In this document: one piece after another, positions 52,302-62,241 of the stretch
Numbering within the stretch: the first letter of the stretch is position 1
How the letters are laid out: every line of letters begins with the position of its first letter
Assembly: GCF_002844395.1 (NCBI RefSeq)
Contig: NZ_CP025197.1
Coordinates: forward strand, 1-64,000
Direction of reading: 5' to 3'
Length of the DNA: 64,000 bases
DNA from: Acetivibrio saccincola
GTDB taxonomy: Bacteria > Bacillota > Clostridia > Acetivibrionales > Acetivibrionaceae
Made by a program: the position numbers and the translations under genes
Notes under the pieces: generated by a model
What the model saw: only the letters and a program-made list of their open reading frames with translations
Database searches by the model: none
What the model was told of the DNA's origin: nothing

Positions 52302-53369
52302 TTACTCTACAGGGAATTTATCAATTATCTCCAATATTTTCCTTTGCATTAAAGCGGCATCCCTTGTATCAATATCACCATCACCATTAACATCTGCTGC
52401 TTTTCTCCACTGGCTGTATTTAAGTTCATCTGTTATATCTAATAAATATAGTTTTATTTCAGCATAATCTATGGAGTCAAAAACACCGTCACCATTTACG
52501 TCTCCATAGACGAATTTAGGAGAAATTCCGGATATTTTCGCCATTTCTTCTGCAAAACAACTGCCTATATCCAGGATACCTTGTGTAAAGTAGTGCATTC
52601 CGTCGGTATCAAAATCTTTTGTATCAAAAATCCCCACATAGGGCACATTTTTAGCTACGTTAATCTGGGCTTGCCTCACAATGGCATGTTCAATCCATGC
52701 ATCCGAATCATCAATCATTGCTATAATAAAAGGCATTGTGGGAGCATTCAAATCTTTTCTGACATCATTAATGAAATGGGTTAAGTTGCTTTCATATTCA
52801 TTTGCAGGATAAATGTTGCAGGCATCAGATTCTCCCTGCATCCAGCACATACCTGAAATTTCATAATCAATTCCGGGATCCAGTTTAGACAGAGCTTCTT
52901 CAACTGTTTCTATTAAATTTTTGTATAAACTTCCGGTGGCCCCGCCTGCACTTGGTGGACGCCAATCCCCTTGCAGGGATGTTCCGGACCATCCACACTT
53001 AATTAAAAAGATCTGGCTGTCAGGATAAATTTTTGCTATATCCCTTCCAAAGGTTAATTCAGGTCCAAAGGCACCGGAACCGGCTCCAAAACCGGGACGC
53101 AGCGGGCTCCATACCTTTTTCAAAGAGGACTCAACGGTACCTTCTGCGTATATTTTAACATTTTCCTGAACTTCAAGAAGCTCAGAAGGTAGTTCATGAT
53201 TCATTCCTACCCCTGCCATATTTGATTGGCCGGCAAGTATGTATACCTTGTGTTTGGATGAACTTCCCTGAGCATAGGATTTAGAATATGCTCCTTTTGT
53301 TGAAACAATAATGAGCATTGGCATTAAGAAAAAATAAATAAGAAATAAATTAAAACCTGACTTTTTCAT
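52302..53369 (-). CDS. Secreted SGNH carbohydrate esterase (CE6/sialate O-acetylesterase type) with dockerin
   Basis: About 355 residues: a signal peptide, a SASA/DUF303 esterase domain (about 40-275) and a C-terminal type I dockerin. The esterase motifs are AGQSNMAG (nucleophile Ser), GMCWMQGESDA and DTDGMHYF (Asp/His). This type removes acetyl groups from xylan and related polymers. The dockerin has two Ca-binding repeats, GDVNGDGVFDSIDYAEIKLY and ADVNGDGDIDTRDAALMQRK, which attach it to a cellulosome scaffoldin. A GTG 9 bases earlier (53378) is another possible start. Confidence 0.88.
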   Translation of the reverse strand: MKKSGFNLFLIYFFLMPMLIIVSTKGAYSKSYAQGSSSKHKVYILAGQSNMAGVGMNHELPSELLEVQENVKIYAEGTVESSLKKVWSPLRPGFGAGSGAFGPELTFGRDIAKIYPDSQIFLIKCGWSGTSLQGDWRPPSAGGATGSLYKNLIETVEEALSKLDPGIDYEISGMCWMQGESDACNIYPANEYESNLTHFINDVRKDLNAPTMPFIIAMIDDSDAWIEHAIVRQAQINVAKNVPYVGIFDTKDFDTDGMHYFTQGILDIGSCFAEEMAKISGISPKFVYGDVNGDGVFDSIDYAEIKLYLLDITDELKYSQWRKAADVNGDGDIDTRDAALMQRKILEIIDKFPVE

Positions 53370-53539
53370 AATTAACACAACTCCCCTTTAAGAAATAAAG
53401 TAAAAATACAATTATTTTTATCATTATTAAAAATAAAAAATAATTTATATAAAATTATAACATGAAAGAGCCGCCATGAAAATTACATCTTGTCATTTCT
53501 CTTGTATTCTGCTCTTATAAAGGCGGATTTATGCAAATT

Positions 53540-53570
53540 AAAAGCAAAGGGCTGTTAACCCCTTGCTTTT
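53540..53570 (-). terminator. Terminator after the GH44 gene
   Basis: AAAAGCAAAGGG pairs with CCCTTGCTTTT around a short loop; read on the minus strand it follows the GH44 stop codon by about 35 bp and ends in Ts. Confidence 0.75.
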
Positions 53571-53605: not shown

Positions 53606-56197
53606 CTACCAGTCAATTGAATCCACATAGATGGTAAAGTCGCCGCTTCCGTTTGTCTCACATTGTATACCTATTTGTTGAGGCAGTGAATCGTCTACGG
53701 TTTCAGGAAGGGTTAGTGTAAGTTCGTTCCAGTCACCTTTTTTTACATATTCATATCCGGCCCATGCTGAATTCCAGTCAAAATATGTCCAGTCTGATGA
53801 GTGAGGCATAATATAGAATTGAAGTGACCTTATTGGTGCACCTTCTGGAATCCATATTCTACAAGTTGCTGTTTCACCAGGTTTAACAACTGCAGAGCCG
53901 CCGATTATAAGGTTAGCAACAGGCTCTTCTTCTGTACCTGTAGAAGAAATATCCCATTTTAATGAGTGTTCTCCGTTAAAAGCTTTATCCGTGGTATTTG
54001 ATACTTTTGAACTTACATTTCCTCCTGTTGTAAATCCTTGCAATGTGCCGTCTTCAAAGTTAAATCTTGCATTATCACCTGTAGCAGACGTTACAGTTAT
54101 GGTTTTTGTAATGCTTCCGGTTAGTCCTAAATTATCAGTGACAACTAGTTTAACATTGTAGGTTCCGGGATTGGTGTACTTATAGTTTACAGTTTTTCCG
54201 CTGGCCTCCTGACCATTTCCAAAGTCCCATGCATAGTGGAAAATAGTCCCGTCAGCATCTGTTGATTTTGATGCATCAAAAGTTATACGGGTACCGGTGG
54301 TTATTTCATTCCCCTCTGATGAGAAAGTGAAAGCTGCTTCAGGTGGTTTGTTTGGTGAATCACTTACATGAGGCAGTGAATTTAAAATTGAAATGAGATA
54401 CCTTGATAAAATGGTGTAGTCACTTGTATTTATTATATTATCACAGTTTAAGTCAGCCGCAATAAAATCTACATCAGAAGTAATTTCAAGAAGGTACCTT
54501 CCAAGTATTGCACAGTCAATGGAATTAACTTCGCCATCACCGTTGAGGTCCCCAAAAAGTATTCCTTCATCATTGCTGTCAAGGATTATGTGGTAAGCAG
54601 ATAAAGGAGGCAGTGCGTAGCTGAATTTGTTGTCAACAATATTTATTACAGGAGTTCTTTCAGTAATATCTGAACTTATTCTGTCAAATCCAAATACTCT
54701 GCCTGAAGTATAGTTTGAAGAACTATCAATTGAAATGTTAAAGTTAACGGATTCATCATAATTTTTGTTTAAAAGGATTATATGAAGTTTATCATCTTTT
54801 TCATCAACAATGGAAGCATATGCTGATGCAAGTTCATAGTCTGAAACATCACATTTAACATTTGTATTTCCATAAGAAGAACCATTGTTGTCATAGTTTG
54901 TGTACAGGTTAAGAGCTGCCACTATGTAATTTTTATTTTGGTCGCCCCAGTAAGTAGCATAATACAAACCATATTTTCCAAATATACCAAGAGCATCAGC
55001 CTGGGCAATACCGCCGGTAATGTGGTTGCCGCCGCCAAAATCATACTCTGTAATTCCAAGTTTTGTTCCCGGATAATATTTATTTATAGATTCTTGGATT
55101 TTTGGTATTATGGGACGGTAATCGTCAAACCAGGGTTCGCCTATCCAGCTGTCTTCCCTGAATTCTTTTTGCCATAGAGTACGTGGAGCTTGAAGACGTG
55201 CTTTATTACATTCTATATTTTTAATGTCTTCTCCGAATGTTACCCTGCTGCCTCCTCCTCTTGCTTCAGGATAGTAATGTATATCAAGGACATCTAAAAG
55301 TCTCTTTCCGGCTTTGTCTGACTCTTTTTTCATTTGGTCAAGATAGTAGTCGACAAACCAATTGTAATTTCCTTCTGCTTGTATTTGTTCCCAGTCAGGA
55401 GCATTTTGAAATGAAAGGTATGCATTAAATCCATATAATGCAGGACCGAATATTTCAGCGTGGGGATCTACGTTCTTAACAGCTTTTGAAAGAGCTGCTC
55501 CCCTCTGAAGAATTTCTTCACAGGTTGCTTGTTCCGGATGAAGAAGAGCATGGGTGTGGGACCATAAGCCAGGCTCGTTATCTATGGAATAGCCCTTTAT
55601 TCCTGTTGGTGTGGATGCATCTCCAAACTCATTTACAAGGAAATTTACAAATTCATCCATATAAACATAGTCGTCATTTAAATCAGGTTCTAATGAAAAC
55701 TCACTGCCCTTTTCAAATTTTACTTCTTTCCAGCGGTCTGACGGTGCTGTTTCTGACTCTTCAACATAGCCGTCCATATCAGCGGAAACATATCCTGCTG
55801 CCTGAAGTGTTATTAATGTATGCTGTACATTTTGGGAAAGAGACTGTTTGTGAAAAGTTGTTACGACGGATCCGGGTTTGTTCCAATCTTCTGCTGGAAC
55901 ACCGGTGGAATTAAGAAGATAATTGTCACTTGAATGAAACCAGTCGCTTCCTGCGTTGGAAGCATTGTTTTCCCAGTTATAGCCTGTAAGCCTGTTTCCA
56001 CCTAGTCTTCTAGCTGTTACAGTTTGTCCTGGAAGGTCTTGATTTACACCGTAGATAAATGGACTTATTTCAGACCTTTCCAATGAAGTATTGATGGTGA
56101 CATCTACACTGTTGTCACTTGCAGTAGCACTTGTAAGTGGAAGTGCTAAGGTGAGTACCATTACAAATGCCACCAAAATTGATGTTTTTCTTTTCAT
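53606..56197 (-). CDS. Cellulosomal GH44 endoglucanase/xyloglucanase: GH44-dockerin-PKD-CBM44
   Basis: The 863-residue protein has a signal peptide (about 1-27) and a GH44 domain (about 30-540). Predicted catalytic residues are Glu208 in SIDNEPGLW (acid/base) and Glu384 in GITEYDFGGGN (nucleophile). A type I dockerin follows (about 547-606: GDLNGDGEVNSIDCAILGRY and ADLNCDNIINTSDYTILSRY), then PKD (about 617-703) and CBM44 (about 710-863). Trp803, Trp808 and Trp812 match the aromatic platform spacing known for CBM44. The order is that of the C-terminal half of C. thermocellum CelJ, here as a separate enzyme. AAGGAGG precedes ATG 56197. It is divergent from the ECF sigma operon, with an ECF-type promoter upstream. 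Confidence 0.93.
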   Translation of the reverse strand: MKRKTSILVAFVMVLTLALPLTSATASDNSVDVTINTSLERSEISPFIYGVNQDLPGQTVTARRLGGNRLTGYNWENNASNAGSDWFHSSDNYLLNSTGVPAEDWNKPGSVVTTFHKQSLSQNVQHTLITLQAAGYVSADMDGYVEESETAPSDRWKEVKFEKGSEFSLEPDLNDDYVYMDEFVNFLVNEFGDASTPTGIKGYSIDNEPGLWSHTHALLHPEQATCEEILQRGAALSKAVKNVDPHAEIFGPALYGFNAYLSFQNAPDWEQIQAEGNYNWFVDYYLDQMKKESDKAGKRLLDVLDIHYYPEARGGGSRVTFGEDIKNIECNKARLQAPRTLWQKEFREDSWIGEPWFDDYRPIIPKIQESINKYYPGTKLGITEYDFGGGNHITGGIAQADALGIFGKYGLYYATYWGDQNKNYIVAALNLYTNYDNNGSSYGNTNVKCDVSDYELASAYASIVDEKDDKLHIILLNKNYDESVNFNISIDSSSNYTSGRVFGFDRISSDITERTPVINIVDNKFSYALPPLSAYHIILDSNDEGILFGDLNGDGEVNSIDCAILGRYLLEITSDVDFIAADLNCDNIINTSDYTILSRYLISILNSLPHVSDSPNKPPEAAFTFSSEGNEITTGTRITFDASKSTDADGTIFHYAWDFGNGQEASGKTVNYKYTNPGTYNVKLVVTDNLGLTGSITKTITVTSATGDNARFNFEDGTLQGFTTGGNVSSKVSNTTDKAFNGEHSLKWDISSTGTEEEPVANLIIGGSAVVKPGETATCRIWIPEGAPIRSLQFYIMPHSSDWTYFDWNSAWAGYEYVKKGDWNELTLTLPETVDDSLPQQIGIQCETNGSGDFTIYVDSIDW

Positions 56198-56363
56198 TTC
56201 TGATTCCTCCTTGTATAATTTTTTTATTTTAAGCAAATTGACCAGGATATGCTGTATAATACTGGAAATACTTCTTACAGACTTATCCTGAATCTATTGC
56301 TTTATGTCTTGGCACTTTATGCTACAAAATATTTCATAATACTTTAACTTGTCTCTAATTTTC

Positions 56364-56391
56364 TTTTACGCCTGAGTTAAAAAAAAGTTCC
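56364..56391 (-). promoter_or_regulatory. ECF-type promoter facing the GH44 gene
   Basis: On the minus strand, GGAAC (56391-56387), a 16 bp spacer, then CGTAAAA (56370-56364). This is the classical ECF pattern of -35 GGAAC and -10 CGT. The leader to the GH44 ATG would be about 160 bases. Confidence 0.7.
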
Positions 56392-56414
56392 CAAAAAAAT
56401 TTTAGAAAAATTAA

Positions 56415-56442
56415 GGAACTTTTTAAGTCTACAGGCGTAAAT
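56415..56442 (+). promoter_or_regulatory. ECF-type promoter facing the sigma/anti-sigma operon
   Basis: On the plus strand, GGAAC (56415-56419), a 16 bp spacer, then CGTAAAT (56436-56442). Its -35, spacer length, last bases of the spacer (CAGG/CAGG) and -10 match the divergent GH44 promoter, which is why the two form an inverted repeat. The leader to ATG 56639 would be about 190 bases. Confidence 0.7.
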
Positions 56443-56638
56443 AAAGGTATAATGGGTATGACAGTTAATGTACGGAAAACTTACCACCGGATTTACTACC
56501 AAAGATGCTTGCGTTTCAAGGCTTCAAATAAAGTCTACTCAAAAAAAGTATGCCTGGTTCTTTAAATATATAAAGAGAATTTTTAAATATTAATGTATAA
56601 TAAATACATGTAGATAGAGATACAGGCATTTTTTGAGC

Positions 56639-57277
56639 ATGAATTTTACCGGCACTAAATATATTGAAGCCTTGAGAGGAAGGTGTGGGTGTTTGAAAAC
56701 AACTGAGTTTCAGGATATAGAGGGGTTTAACAAGGGACAGAAACTTTTATCTTTAATTGATATGTATAAAAATCAGGTTTACAGGCTGTGCTACCGTCTT
56801 ACCAACAATGAATTTGATGCAGATGACCTTTTTCAGGATACATGGGTAAGGGTTGTAAGAAATATTGACAGTTATGATAAGAACAAATCTTTTGAAACAT
56901 GGATTTATACCATTACTATAAACTTATACAAGGACAGGTACAGGAAGCAAAAGCGGTGGATGAATATAATAAAGGATTTTTTTACAAATGAAAAAAAGGA
57001 TTTTGAATTGTCAAAGGTACCTTTGGATAAATTTCATCCGGAGTCCCTTTTAATAGACAAGGAGTGTACAAAAGAGCTGGAAGCATTTTTAAACGGTTTA
57101 CCGGACAATTTCAGGATACCTGTTATTTTATATTACTTTAAGGAAATGAATTATAATCAGATATCGGATGTATTGGATATACCTGTTGGAACGGTGAAGT
57201 CCCGTCTGAGCAGGGGGATTCACAAGTTAAAAAAAGCACTGGAGAAAGGAGGATATGATTATGGAAATGGAAATTGA
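56639..57277 (+). CDS. ECF-family RNA polymerase sigma factor
   Basis: The 212-residue protein has sigma region 2 (about 40-108: NQVYRLCYRLTNNEFDADDL, QDTWVRVVRNI, SFETWIYTITINLYKDRYRK) and region 4 (about 145-205: LPDNFRIPVILYYFKEMNY, ISDVLDIPVGTVKSRLSRG). There is no region 3 and region 4 is present, so it is ECF-type and not SigI. The N-terminal 30 residues are an unusual extension; a TTG at 56633 or a later Met (56762) are other possible starts, and the ribosome site is weak. It overlaps the anti-sigma gene by 17 bases. Its closest functional parallel is Sig24C of C. thermocellum. Confidence 0.9.
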   Translation: MNFTGTKYIEALRGRCGCLKTTEFQDIEGFNKGQKLLSLIDMYKNQVYRLCYRLTNNEFDADDLFQDTWVRVVRNIDSYDKNKSFETWIYTITINLYKDRYRKQKRWMNIIKDFFTNEKKDFELSKVPLDKFHPESLLIDKECTKELEAFLNGLPDNFRIPVILYYFKEMNYNQISDVLDIPVGTVKSRLSRGIHKLKKALEKGGYDYGNGN

Positions 57278-58778
57278 AAAATTAGAAAAATTATTAAAGA
57301 AAATAGATTCTAAAGAAATATCACCTTCTGAAGAGTTAGTTACAAGGACCAAAGAAAGGGTTCTTAGAGAACTGGATTTAATGGATGATTCAAAAAGAGA
57401 AAGCCCGGGAAAAAGAGTTGTTTATAACAAACCCCGGTTTAGGTTTGCACAGCTTTTGGCAGTTGTAAGCTGTTTTGCACTGCTGATAATCCTGTATATG
57501 CAGAGAAGCATTTTTAACAAAGAAATATATGCATATGTTCACATAGATATTAACCCAAGCATTGAAATGACAATCGACTTAAATAATATAGTTACAAAGG
57601 TTGTAGCAATTAATGACAGTTCAAAAGAATTTTTAAAAGATTTAAAGCTTAATCAAAAGTCTTTAGACAGAGCGGTAGAAGACATTTTGGAAAAGTCCGT
57701 TGAGTCAGCTTTAATTAATGAAGAATCTAATAATGTGATTATTTGTGCACATTTAGCAGAAACGTATTCAAATGAAAAAAAGGAGGTACAGAATTTAAAC
57801 AGAATTTTGGATAATTTAAAAGTGCTGACCTCCAACTACCGGGATATTAAGATTAATGCCCATACTTTAATGGTTCCGTCTGAAGTTTTTAATAAGGCTA
57901 AAGAAAACAATGTATCAATGTCAAGGTATGTATTGTTTAAAGAGCTTGAAAAGAGGGGCTTTGAATACAGTATTGAAGATATCAAAACCGAAGATGTATC
58001 TTATATGTTGGGAAAACTCACCCAAAGACCTGAAGACGACACAAAGGAAGATATAAAACCTAAAGCAGCATTTACTTATACCCCGGAGGAAATAACAATT
58101 GGCGATGTTGTGAAATTTGATGCTACAGATTCAGAAGCCCTACAGGGAAGCATTTCTCAATATTCATGGGACTTTGGGGATGGTGCCAATGGAGTTGGAA
58201 AAACTGTGGAGCATAGATATACAGAAGTTGGCAATTATTTGGTAAAATTAAGCGTTACAAATAATTTAGGCGTTACAGGTACTTATACAGAAAAAATAAC
58301 CGTAAAATTAAATTCAAGCAATAAAACAAAATTTGACTGGGAAAACGGCAGTACTGAAGGATTTATTGTAAGCAGCGATTCATCTTCTATATCCAACACA
58401 ACAGAGAAAAGTTATGAAGGTACCAGGTCTTTAAAATGGGATATAGCGGCTTCTGGTGAAGAAATATTGGAAGTTTGCAGGGATTTGTATGATATAATAC
58501 CAGCCGGGTCAACCATAACTTTCAAAATATGGGTACCGTTAGGTGCTCCGGTAAGGGCTATACAGCCATATATCATGACTTTTGAAGGCAATTATGAAAA
58601 TTACCGGTGGTATTCTTCATGGCAGAGGTATGGAAGCCTCAAAAAAGATGCATGGAATGAATTTGTAATAAAACTGCCTGAAGATTTGGATATGACATTA
58701 GAACAGCAAATAGGTGTCCAATGTGAGATAATAGGGGAAGGGAATTTTACCATATATATTGACTTAATTGAATGGTAA
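57261..58778 (+). CDS. RsgI-like anti-sigma factor with extracellular PKD-CBM44
   Basis: The 505-residue membrane protein has a cytoplasmic N-terminus (about 1-60) that should bind the sigma factor, one transmembrane helix (about 62-80), an RsgI-type periplasmic domain (about 85-250) containing HIDINPSIEMTID, then PKD (about 266-348) and CBM44 (about 357-505). In RsgI proteins the Asn-Pro bond in this motif is autocleaved; here it is Asn98-Pro99. The CBM44 platform residues are Tyr445, Trp450 and Trp454, at the same spacing as in the GH44 enzyme. AAAGGAGG at 57245-57252 supports ATG 57261. It overlaps and is coupled to the ECF gene. Expected role: bind polysaccharide outside and release the sigma factor inside. 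Confidence 0.88.
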   Translation: MEMEIEKLEKLLKKIDSKEISPSEELVTRTKERVLRELDLMDDSKRESPGKRVVYNKPRFRFAQLLAVVSCFALLIILYMQRSIFNKEIYAYVHIDINPSIEMTIDLNNIVTKVVAINDSSKEFLKDLKLNQKSLDRAVEDILEKSVESALINEESNNVIICAHLAETYSNEKKEVQNLNRILDNLKVLTSNYRDIKINAHTLMVPSEVFNKAKENNVSMSRYVLFKELEKRGFEYSIEDIKTEDVSYMLGKLTQRPEDDTKEDIKPKAAFTYTPEEITIGDVVKFDATDSEALQGSISQYSWDFGDGANGVGKTVEHRYTEVGNYLVKLSVTNNLGVTGTYTEKITVKLNSSNKTKFDWENGSTEGFIVSSDSSSISNTTEKSYEGTRSLKWDIAASGEEILEVCRDLYDIIPAGSTITFKIWVPLGAPVRAIQPYIMTFEGNYENYRWYSSWQRYGSLKKDAWNEFVIKLPEDLDMTLEQQIGVQCEIIGEGNFTIYIDLIEW

Positions 58779-58901: not shown

Positions 58902-61900
58902 ATGATGAAAAAAAGTAAAAAGTTTATTATGTTAGTTTTACTTATTAGTATTGTGGTACAGGGGTTAATGGGGAATATAACATATTCTCAAAACAATTCT
59001 AAAGATCATACCGAAAAATTGTTTAGTGATATTACAAATCATTGGGCAAAAGAATCCATTAATTTTTTAGCAGAAAAAGATTATGTGAGTGGATATGTAA
59101 CTGATGAAGGATATGTAATAAAACCGGACTCAAAGATAACAAGAGCAGGATATTTAGCAGTGCTTTTAAAAACAAAGAAACTTGAAGTTATAAAAGAAAA
59201 AACAAAGGAGTTTACAGACATAAAAGATAATAACTGGTTTAAGGAAATGGTTGATATAGCTTCAAGTAATGGAATACTAGAAGGTTATCCAGATGGAAGT
59301 TTTAAACCTAACAATCCTATTACAAGGGCAGAAATTGCAGCCCTATTGGTAAAACTAAACAATTGGACTTTAGATGAGCTTAATTTAACAATAGATAATT
59401 TTATAGATGTTGAAAAAAACTCTTGGTTCTATAGTCCTGTAATGATATGTAAAGAAAGAGGAATTATAAATGGATATTCTGATAAATCTTTCAAACCTCA
59501 TAACTACGCATCAAGAGGCGAGGCATTTACATTAGTTGCAAACTATGTCAAAAGTCTAAATTCAACTGAATTAGACAGAGAAGAAATACCTGCTGCTCCA
59601 GAATCAGCACCTGAAAATGAGCCTGAAAATACACATCAGACAGTACCAACACCTACAAGCACACCAACACCCCGAAGTAACAAATCATCTGGGACTAGTC
59701 CGAAAAAGAACGAAACATCTGATCTAGAAATATATGTTTACAATAACAATCAAGAGCCACTAAAAAAAAAGTGGAAATAATTGCAATTCCAAAAGACAAG
59801 AATTTGAAAGAAATATCGGCAAAAAGTGACCAAAACGGGTATGTTAAGATTAACATTTTATCAAAAAAAGAATATGAAATAATTGTTAAAAAGGAAGGAT
59901 ACAAGAGTATAGTAAAAGAAAATATTCTTCTCGATGTAGATGAGGTTGTTGTTTCCATGAAAAATGGAAAAAAACTAAGTAAAGAATTTTCAATTGATGT
60001 GTTAGAACCTTTACCAGATGAAATATTTGAAAATGTTTTAAATATAAATAAATACATAACTAAGTACGCCTCAGAGTATTTTAGTAACAATGAAAATGCC
60101 AATATAGAAGAACTGGTAGAAGAACTCCAAAGTATTTTAACTCAGGATGAGCGGATAAAAGAAGTAAATAACTTAAATGGTACTATTGAAATTGTACTAT
60201 CAAGCGGATTACGTACTTTTATACAAGTAGTAAATTACGAAGATATGGAAACTATGCCTAGAGGAAGCTCCAATAGTCTTCAGAAAATAAATAATTTCCA
60301 AGAAATCAGTGAAGAAGAATATCAAATTACAGATTATGACTTCTTAATGTCAAAAGACATTCTTATATGGTCTCCTTTTGATACTAAATGGAGTGAAGCA
60401 GCAGAAACTGTTTACATAGAGGAAATTGTTAAAGAATCTGTTTATAAATATAATTTAGACATATTAAGAGATGAATATGCGAATATAGAATCCTTAAAAG
60501 AAATATGCGAGTATGGAATAATTGTATTTTCAACACATGGTATTAACGGAGACTGGATTGTAACAGGGGAGAAAGTAGAAGACAGCCAAAAGTACAGAAC
60601 TGAACAGCAAAGAGGAGAAGTGTCTATATATAATATAATTGATAAAAAAGAAGGAAATATAGAAAGTTATTATATGGTTAATTCGAAATGGTTTGAAAGA
60701 AATATACAAGGAACATTTCCAAAAAGTATAATTATAAACAATTCATGTGAAAGTGCAAAAACAGAGTTACTATGGGATGTTTTCAAAAAAAAGGCGCATC
60801 CACATATTATGGATACACTGATAAAATTACCAATGAATATGTAGTAATTCAATCAATTAAACTATTATCAGAAATAATACTTGGGGGAAAGAGTACACTT
60901 GAAGCTTACAATCCGTCACTTGATAGGTATTATAATGATGGAGGAATGCTTATAATTAAAGGACACGCAAATTTAAAACTTCCAACCGGACTAATTAACG
61001 GTGGTTTTGAAAATGGTTTGGCGGGATGGCAAAAAGATGGAGATGGAAGATCTATTACCCAGCTAGGTTCAATCCGACCAACAGAAGGAAATAGAATGGG
61101 TATAATATCAACAGGATTGGGCTATACTCTGGTACAGGGAATACTTAATCAAAGCATTTACATTCCAGAAACAGTCAACACAATATCTTTTAATTGGAAT
61201 TTTTTTGTCAGAAGAATTTTTGGAGTTCATCGGAAGCAAATTTGATGATCCTTTTGTGGTTTCAATAACCTTAGAAACACAGAATAATGAAGAGATTAAA
61301 GTTTTAGATATTAATGTTAATAAAATAGCTGAAATGTTTAATGCCACACAATACGATAGTGGTAATTTGATATCTGTTTCACCAGACATAGTCTTTGACA
61401 AAGGTGATGTCTGGATGACTGGGTGGCAAACGACAGAAATTGACATAAAAGATTATCGGAATCAAAATGTAATTTTAAAATTTAGTGTCGAAGATGCTGT
61501 AGATACAATATATACTACTGCTGTATTAATTGACAATGTAAAATTTGATGTTGAAGATTTATATAACGGTCAACGGATAGAGGTTGACTCTTTAGTATTT
61601 AATGAAGACTACATAAGAGGAATTTGGTTTAACGATGCAAAGGGTTCAAGTTATGTATTATACTGTCCTGATGACTTTAGCTCTCAAGCTGAATTTGTAA
61701 GAAAACAAACCAAGTTTTTTAACGGATACAAAAATATTGAACAAGTTAAATTTCATGCCATAAAAACAACTAAAGAATTTGAAGAGGTATGGAATAACAT
61801 GGAGGGACATCCTGATACAGGAGTTATTGACGATGTAATACTTCTTTTTCATAGTGATTATCATGCTATTTTTATTGATTCTTCCAATAGACAGTATTTA

Positions 61901-62241
61901 ACTGTCAGTCCGGGTGGTTTTGCAGGAAGGGGCAAAACTATATATGAAGCGTATCATATAAGGAATCTACAAAAAAAGAAGATAAAAAGAATTGAGTTAC
62001 TTACATGTAATAAAGATTAGCAATAAACCAAAGTGCTTTTTATAATTATTTAGAATATTTAGAAAACATAAGAAAAATAAAGCCCTCGAGAACCTATGGC
62101 TACATATTTGCGCCTCGTGGATGGCTTCCAAAACCTGAGCCATTTGGTTCTGTTATATACTATAAAGATAAAAAGGGAAACATGTCAGTAATGTATAGAA
62201 ATACAATAACATGGAGGGAGATCGGGAATTACGATGAATAA
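58902..62241 (+). pseudogene. Large SLH-anchored protein with two caspase-like folds, broken by four frameshifts
   Basis: Four consecutive frames join into one protein of about 1,110 residues. Segment 1 (58902-59780): signal peptide, three SLH repeats (GYPDGSFKPNNPITRAE and others), a Pro/Thr-rich linker and the start of a carboxypeptidase-regulatory-like domain. Segment 2 (to about 60784): the rest of that domain and a caspase/CHAT-like fold with His in IVFSTHGING and Cys in INNSCESAK. Segment 3 (to about 61206): the end of that fold and the start of a beta-sandwich. Segment 4 (to 62020) starts SEEFLEFIGS and ends in a second fold with FHSDYHAIF and RIELLTCN. A last stretch (62015-62241) gives LAINQSAFYNYLEYL. 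Breaks lie at A9 59762-59770, A8 60785-60792, T7 61200-61206 and A3 62012-62014. Its stop overlaps the next gene by 8 bases. Confidence 0.7.

Follow-up and report, generated by a model that had tools for sequence, protein, structure and literature searches.

We analysed a 64-kb window of DNA, the first part of the 3.6-Mb single-contig genome of Acetivibrio saccincola, in which the gene for a secreted cellulosomal GH44 enzyme is divergent from an operon encoding an extracytoplasmic function (ECF) sigma factor and its membrane anti-sigma factor, referred to below as the sensor. We consider it likely that this locus is a dedicated, autoregulated polysaccharide-sensing unit. A preliminary description had proposed such a sense-and-respond loop, and the proposal gains support because one and the same ECF-type promoter stands before each of the divergent genes, in a conserved arrangement. 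Since sensor and enzyme share a type of sugar-binding module and their genes share a promoter sequence, contact of the sensor with plant glucans probably leads the cell to make the GH44 enzyme. The evidence that sensor and enzyme are wired together is good. The other half of the proposal, that enzyme and sensor see the same polymer, fared less well and is taken up below.

Putative promoters of the divergent genes

The gap between the two genes (56237-56632) holds two head-to-head GGAAC-N16-CGTAAA elements, one for each gene, which the preliminary description had missed. In their -35 and -10 elements both are built like SigW-type ECF promoters. No further such site occurs in the 64-kb window, even when one mismatch is allowed, and 100 shuffles of the window gave a mean of 0.1 sites, with none of the 100 containing two. 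An ECF gene next to a CBM44-bearing anti-sigma gene, for which a search of other genomes had been suggested, was found in four genomes of the same genus: that of the window, Acetivibrio alkalicellulosi DSM 17461 (G004), Herbivorax sp. ANBcel31 (G007) and a Clostridium metagenome-assembled genome (G005). All four have retained the sigma-side site. The GH44-side site is kept in the three genomes that have GH44 there (window, G004 and G005) and is gone in ANBcel31, where a CBM30-GH9-dockerin gene takes the place of GH44, just upstream of the sigma gene and co-directional with it. About 35 nucleotides (nt) before its open reading frame (ORF), in about 400 nt of upstream sequence searched, this GH9 gene is preceded by GGAAC-ATAAATAATTATGAGG-CGTATA. 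What speaks most strongly for control of the neighbour by the sigma factor is that the neighbouring enzyme is swapped while the promoter motif stays. A. alkalicellulosi also has a CBM30-GH9 gene, 87% identical to that of ANBcel31, with no such promoter nearby.

A strict pattern, GGAAC-N15-R-CGTANA, was run over the four sigma-bearing genomes and returned 3, 2, 2 and 2 matches. Eight of these nine lie at the operon or upstream of the neighbour enzyme; the ninth falls inside an ORF for a MATE-type transporter, runs opposite to it and is not upstream of any gene. Since the pattern was built from the locus, including the GH9 site, matches at the locus are by construction, and the independent parts of the promoter case are the rarity of the motif elsewhere, its conservation, and the occurrence of the GH9 site at all in the region searched. 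Looser patterns (up to two mismatches) gave counts at or below those of the controls and no credible additional regulon members; two extra matches viewed in context both lay within unrelated coding genes. Nearer the sigma gene is a further conserved block, TGTATAATAAATACAT, which contains TATAAT (56596-56601), is partly palindromic (ATGTAT/ATACAT), and may serve the sigma operon as a basal housekeeping promoter or as an operator.

The sigma factor, the sensor and the enzyme

The sigma factor has regions 2 and 4 only and shares an operon with its anti-sigma gene, as is characteristic of the ECF class; its top-scoring models, PRK12522 and SigW, are both under their cut-offs. ECF factors also tend to autoregulate from a bipartite promoter of the GGAAC/CGT type, for which the sigma-side site kept in four genomes is a candidate. 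Translation starts at either TTG 56633 or ATG 56640. Orthologues (72-83% identity) were found in the same genus only, and the sigma and anti-sigma genes overlap in all four genomes. The ORFs and their domains thus agree with the divergent ECF sigma factor and overlapping membrane anti-sigma factor described earlier. The anti-sigma factor is, as had been described, a membrane protein ending in PKD-CBM44; what had been overlooked is an RsgI-type periplasmic domain (RsgI_M) between membrane and PKD. The Asn-Pro cleavage site predicted for this domain, in a DINPS motif, recurs in all four orthologues and in most RsgIs of the family. An AlphaFold2 model of the sensor built from the four sequences had a mean pLDDT of 53 and was not used. 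No Rfam family matched at the locus.

The enzyme ORF, which extends in its longest form over 53606-56236(-), matches Glyco_hydro_44 (1e-76), Dockerin_1 (2e-13) and PKD (4e-21) in Pfam and ends in a jelly roll. Coordinates and Pfam domains bear out a secreted GH44 enzyme with a C-terminal PKD-CBM44; the earlier GH44-PKD-CBM44 description left out the dockerin, which marks the enzyme as part of a cellulosome. ATG 56197, preceded by the ribosome-binding site AAGGAGG and in agreement with the orthologues, is preferred over TTG 56236 and is most likely where translation begins.

Table 1. Coordinates of the features of the locus, in positions of the window
Feature	Position	Strand	Remarks
Terminator-like hairpin	53547..53564		3' of GH44, dividing it from the 52302-53378 gene; weak evidence, scan near chance level
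Secreted cellulosomal GH44 enzyme	53606..56197	-	Signal peptide, Pfam domains; orthologues in loci L038 and L039
CBM44	53609-54064	-	Within GH44 enzyme
PKD	54089-54331	-	Within GH44 enzyme
Dockerin	54395-54553	-	Within GH44 enzyme
GH44 domain	about 55262-55963	-	Within GH44 enzyme
Putative ECF-type promoter toward GH44	56365..56391	-	GGAAC-TTTTTTTTAACTCAGG-CGTAAA, spacer 16; start codon ~170 nt downstream
Putative ECF-type promoter toward sigma gene	56415..56441	+	GGAAC-TTTTTAAGTCTACAGG-CGTAAA, spacer 16
Conserved block TGTATAATAAATACAT	56594..56609	+	16-bp block upstream of sigma gene; near-invariant in four genomes
ECF sigma factor	56633..57277	+	Sigma70 regions 2 and 4 (Pfam)
Anti-sigma factor/sensor	57255..58778	+	Overlaps sigma gene; short helical cytoplasmic segment, then transmembrane segment, RsgI_M, PKD, CBM44
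Transmembrane segment	about 57441-57503	+	Anti-sigma factor
RsgI_M	57528-57941	+	Anti-sigma factor; PF23750, E 3.5e-26
Predicted autocleavage site Asn100-Pro101, DINPS motif	57552..57557	+	RsgI-type periplasmic domain; from sequence conservation
PKD	58059-58304	+	Anti-sigma factor; Pfam E 7e-20
CBM44	58332-58775	+	Anti-sigma factor

The domain make-up, gene overlap, CBM44 homology, promoter-like pair and conservation are read from the sequence. Beyond this anatomy, the ligand, sensing itself and the sigma factor's use of both promoters are proposed, as are autocleavage and the subsequent proteolysis, which follow the analogy of RsgI6 of C. thermocellum, for which autocleavage and the RseP and ClpXP steps are documented (PMC12203970). 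At rest, the ECF sigma factor would be kept at the membrane by the anti-sigma factor, while the outer CBM44, on its PKD spacer, would catch beta-glucan or xyloglucan chains. The pull of the ligand would separate the halves of the self-cleaved RsgI-type domain, cut between Asn100 and Pro101, after which intramembrane and cytoplasmic proteases could degrade the anchor and free the sigma factor. The freed sigma factor would transcribe from the two head-to-head promoters and so raise both its own operon and the GH44-dockerin-PKD-CBM44 enzyme.

Two neighbouring regions also deserve mention. A SASA-type carbohydrate esterase with a dockerin, 52302-53378(-), lies directly downstream of GH44; it adjoins GH44 in G005 too, and not in G004. 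On the other side, 58902-62020(+) begins with an ORF that has an SLH domain; behind it the frame shifts across three overlapping ORFs, so that the whole resembles a single surface protein that has been frameshifted; the group is absent at the equivalent place in G005 (L038).

Origin and ligand of the sensor CBM44

The PKD-CBM44 pairs of enzyme and sensor had been called homologous throughout, and the alignment that had been suggested gave 43% identity over 264 residues (E 1e-69). The best solved structure match of the sensor pair is 2c26, the PKD-CBM44 of C. thermocellum Cel9D-Cel44A (CelJ), with an E value of 1e-60. Among 58 genomes of the order, 23 carry a CBM44 module, and the anti-sigma version is limited to the four genomes named above. 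Copies of the enzyme type, that is, outside anti-sigma factors and RsgIs, lie in ORFs of 858-1617 residues, like GH44 enzymes, with the exception of a 185-residue fragment (G009). In 391 genomes of the class no other sensor ORF appeared at the threshold used, and no relatives were found in viral contigs. Four short CBM44-like ORFs from the class-level set were viewed: the three with a CBM-like module look secreted or cell-surface, and none is an anti-sigma factor. In a tree, the four sensor CBM44 modules form one clade (100/100) on a long stem, beside the genus's own GH44 copies with moderate support (85/72). These sequences are most simply read as one capture in the ancestor of the genus, followed by divergence, rather than as recent copying.

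Do sensor and enzyme bind the same polymer? We compared three aromatic positions, which reportedly (Najmudin 2006) form the CBM44 binding face. The sensor has an aromatic residue at all three, in line with the C. thermocellum CBM44; every one of the 22 enzyme-type copies reads W/W/W at these positions, and each of the four sensors Y/W/W. CBM44, a type B, chain-binding module, and CBM30 of CelJ each bind xyloglucan and plain beta-glucan alike (PMC10992016). Of 39 C. thermocellum modules assayed, CBM44 bound the widest range of ligands, and it also binds insoluble amorphous cellulose (phosphoric acid-swollen cellulose, PASC) (PMC4687162). ANBcel31 keeps the sensor and is without a CBM44-type GH44. 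It is because of this last observation, the tyrosine in all sensors and the broad binding of CBM44 that recognition of the same polymer by sensor and enzyme is only plausible.

Several observations weigh against the sensing unit proposed here. The genome of A. alkalicellulosi is flagged as contaminated; no Pfam anti-sigma domain matched the cytoplasmic segment of the anti-sigma factor, and no named one its residues 1-92; no proline-rich linker separates RsgI_M from PKD, whereas 13 of 14 family RsgIs examined have one; and one face tryptophan is replaced by tyrosine in every sensor. The last two points would suit a different signal. The sensor may report soluble chains or fragments freed near the cell, such as xyloglucan or mixed-linkage glucan, and thus success of digestion rather than intact wall polymer. 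Lacking a linker that crosses the wall, the sensor would stay near the membrane, which would favour soluble chains, and a type B module binds chains. On the other hand, PKD-CBM44 adds some reach, and the binding of C. thermocellum CBM44 to PASC speaks for insoluble ligands as well. We regard this as a credible possibility, though not the favoured one.

Two further explanations concern the wiring itself. One, which is unlikely, is that the anti-sigma CBM44 was left over from a domain swap and plays no active part, while the sigma factor responds to envelope stress and is tied to GH44 only incidentally. The apparent single capture from a relative of the genus's GH44, and the long stem branch, would fit such a remnant, but PKD-CBM44 is held at 69-82% identity over four species, its Y/W/W face is conserved, and the sigma factor's promoter motif stands on the neighbouring cellulase in every genome. 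The other, which is very improbable, is that a dimeric repressor or activator occupies the inverted sites and that the ECF sigma factor governs something else. The sites do form perfect 10-nt inverted repeats (I6, I7); however, each half matches SigW-type ECF promoters in its -35 and -10 elements and their 16-nt spacing, and in ANBcel31 the sigma gene and GH9 each have a single upstream site that faces the gene.

Relation to known glycan-sensing systems

The sensing unit proposed here has most in common with the SigI-RsgI systems of C. thermocellum (sigmaI1-8, RsgI1-9), whose anti-sigma factors likewise have one transmembrane segment, an RsgI_M with a conserved Asn-Pro, a C-terminal carbohydrate-binding sensor (here PKD-CBM44) and an operon shared with their sigma factor. 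In contrast, the sigma factor of the window is not a SigI but an ECF protein with regions 2 and 4 and SigW-like scores, and its anti-sigma factor has a short cytoplasmic segment with no recognisable RsgI N-domain and no proline-rich linker. When 22 further RsgI_M genes of the family were examined, 20 lay behind a SigI gene and none behind an ECF gene; upstream of the other two there was no match to a sigma factor. Given its ECF partner, the system is not a SigI-RsgI member, though it would work likewise. CBM44 is not among the sensor modules listed for SigI-RsgI (PMC3413522, PMC12203970). In the same genome as the window, two RsgI-like proteins with no SigI match upstream (L004, 2177364-2181011; L007, 3242996-3246634) end in modules that resemble jelly rolls; as orphan sensors they recall RsgI9.

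The closest ECF precedent is sigma24C-Rsi24C (Cthe_1470-1471), also an ECF sigma factor with a membrane anti-sigma factor bearing a carbohydrate module. Rsi24C lies directly upstream of a cellulosomal enzyme gene, celH (Cthe_1472, GH26-GH5), and shares with it the broad GH5 family; the two GH5 modules are remotely alike (18%, E 8e-4). An enzyme-matched sensor loop is therefore not wholly unprecedented. The two systems differ in that Rsi24C has no RsgI_M match, an HxxxCxxC-type start and a GH5 end in place of RsgI_M-PKD-CBM44; the sigma factors are 29% identical, and the sigma24C and celH genes are co-directional, with no exact shared promoter motif found at their locus. By its domains and its sigma partner, the anti-sigma factor of the window is a hybrid of the ECF and RsgI types and differs from SigI-RsgI as well as from sigma24C-Rsi24C. 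The claim that no CBM44 sensor is known held: neither a CBM44 sensor nor an ECF/RsgI_M sensor is described in the literature searched, subscription papers and supplements lying outside the search.

A related genus offers a parallel. There, in G012 (L041, 3833-5914), a SigI-RsgI pair has an RsgI with RsgI_M and a diverged, CBM44-like C-terminus (2c26 match, E 1e-13). It differs in its SigI partner, its proline-rich linker, the absence of PKD and a CBM44 only ~31% identical, and apparently gained the module by separate acquisition, so CBM44 sensing probably arose twice. The enzymes recall CelJ (Cel9D-Cel44A, Cthe_0624), which is CBM30-GH9-GH44-Doc-PKD-CBM44 (PMC3413522): the window enzyme resembles its GH44-PKD-CBM44 half and the ANBcel31 neighbour its CBM30-GH9 half. 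Unlike in CelJ, the halves are separate genes in this genus, and either is found beside the sensor operon.

The locus may, with about even chances, represent a third clostridial glycan-sensing architecture, in which an ECF sigma factor is joined to an RsgI autocleavage transducer and to a CBM44 captured from the genus's GH44. Its regulon would be roughly one enzyme plus itself, and the neighbour would be exchangeable (GH44 or CBM30-GH9) with the promoter logic kept. The locus shows the RsgI autocleavage transducer to be separable from SigI and able to stand before an ECF sigma factor. As a compact sensor-promoter-enzyme unit, with both promoters predicted to the base, it opens the match between sensor ligand and enzyme to direct testing and provides a small building block for glucan-responsive expression.

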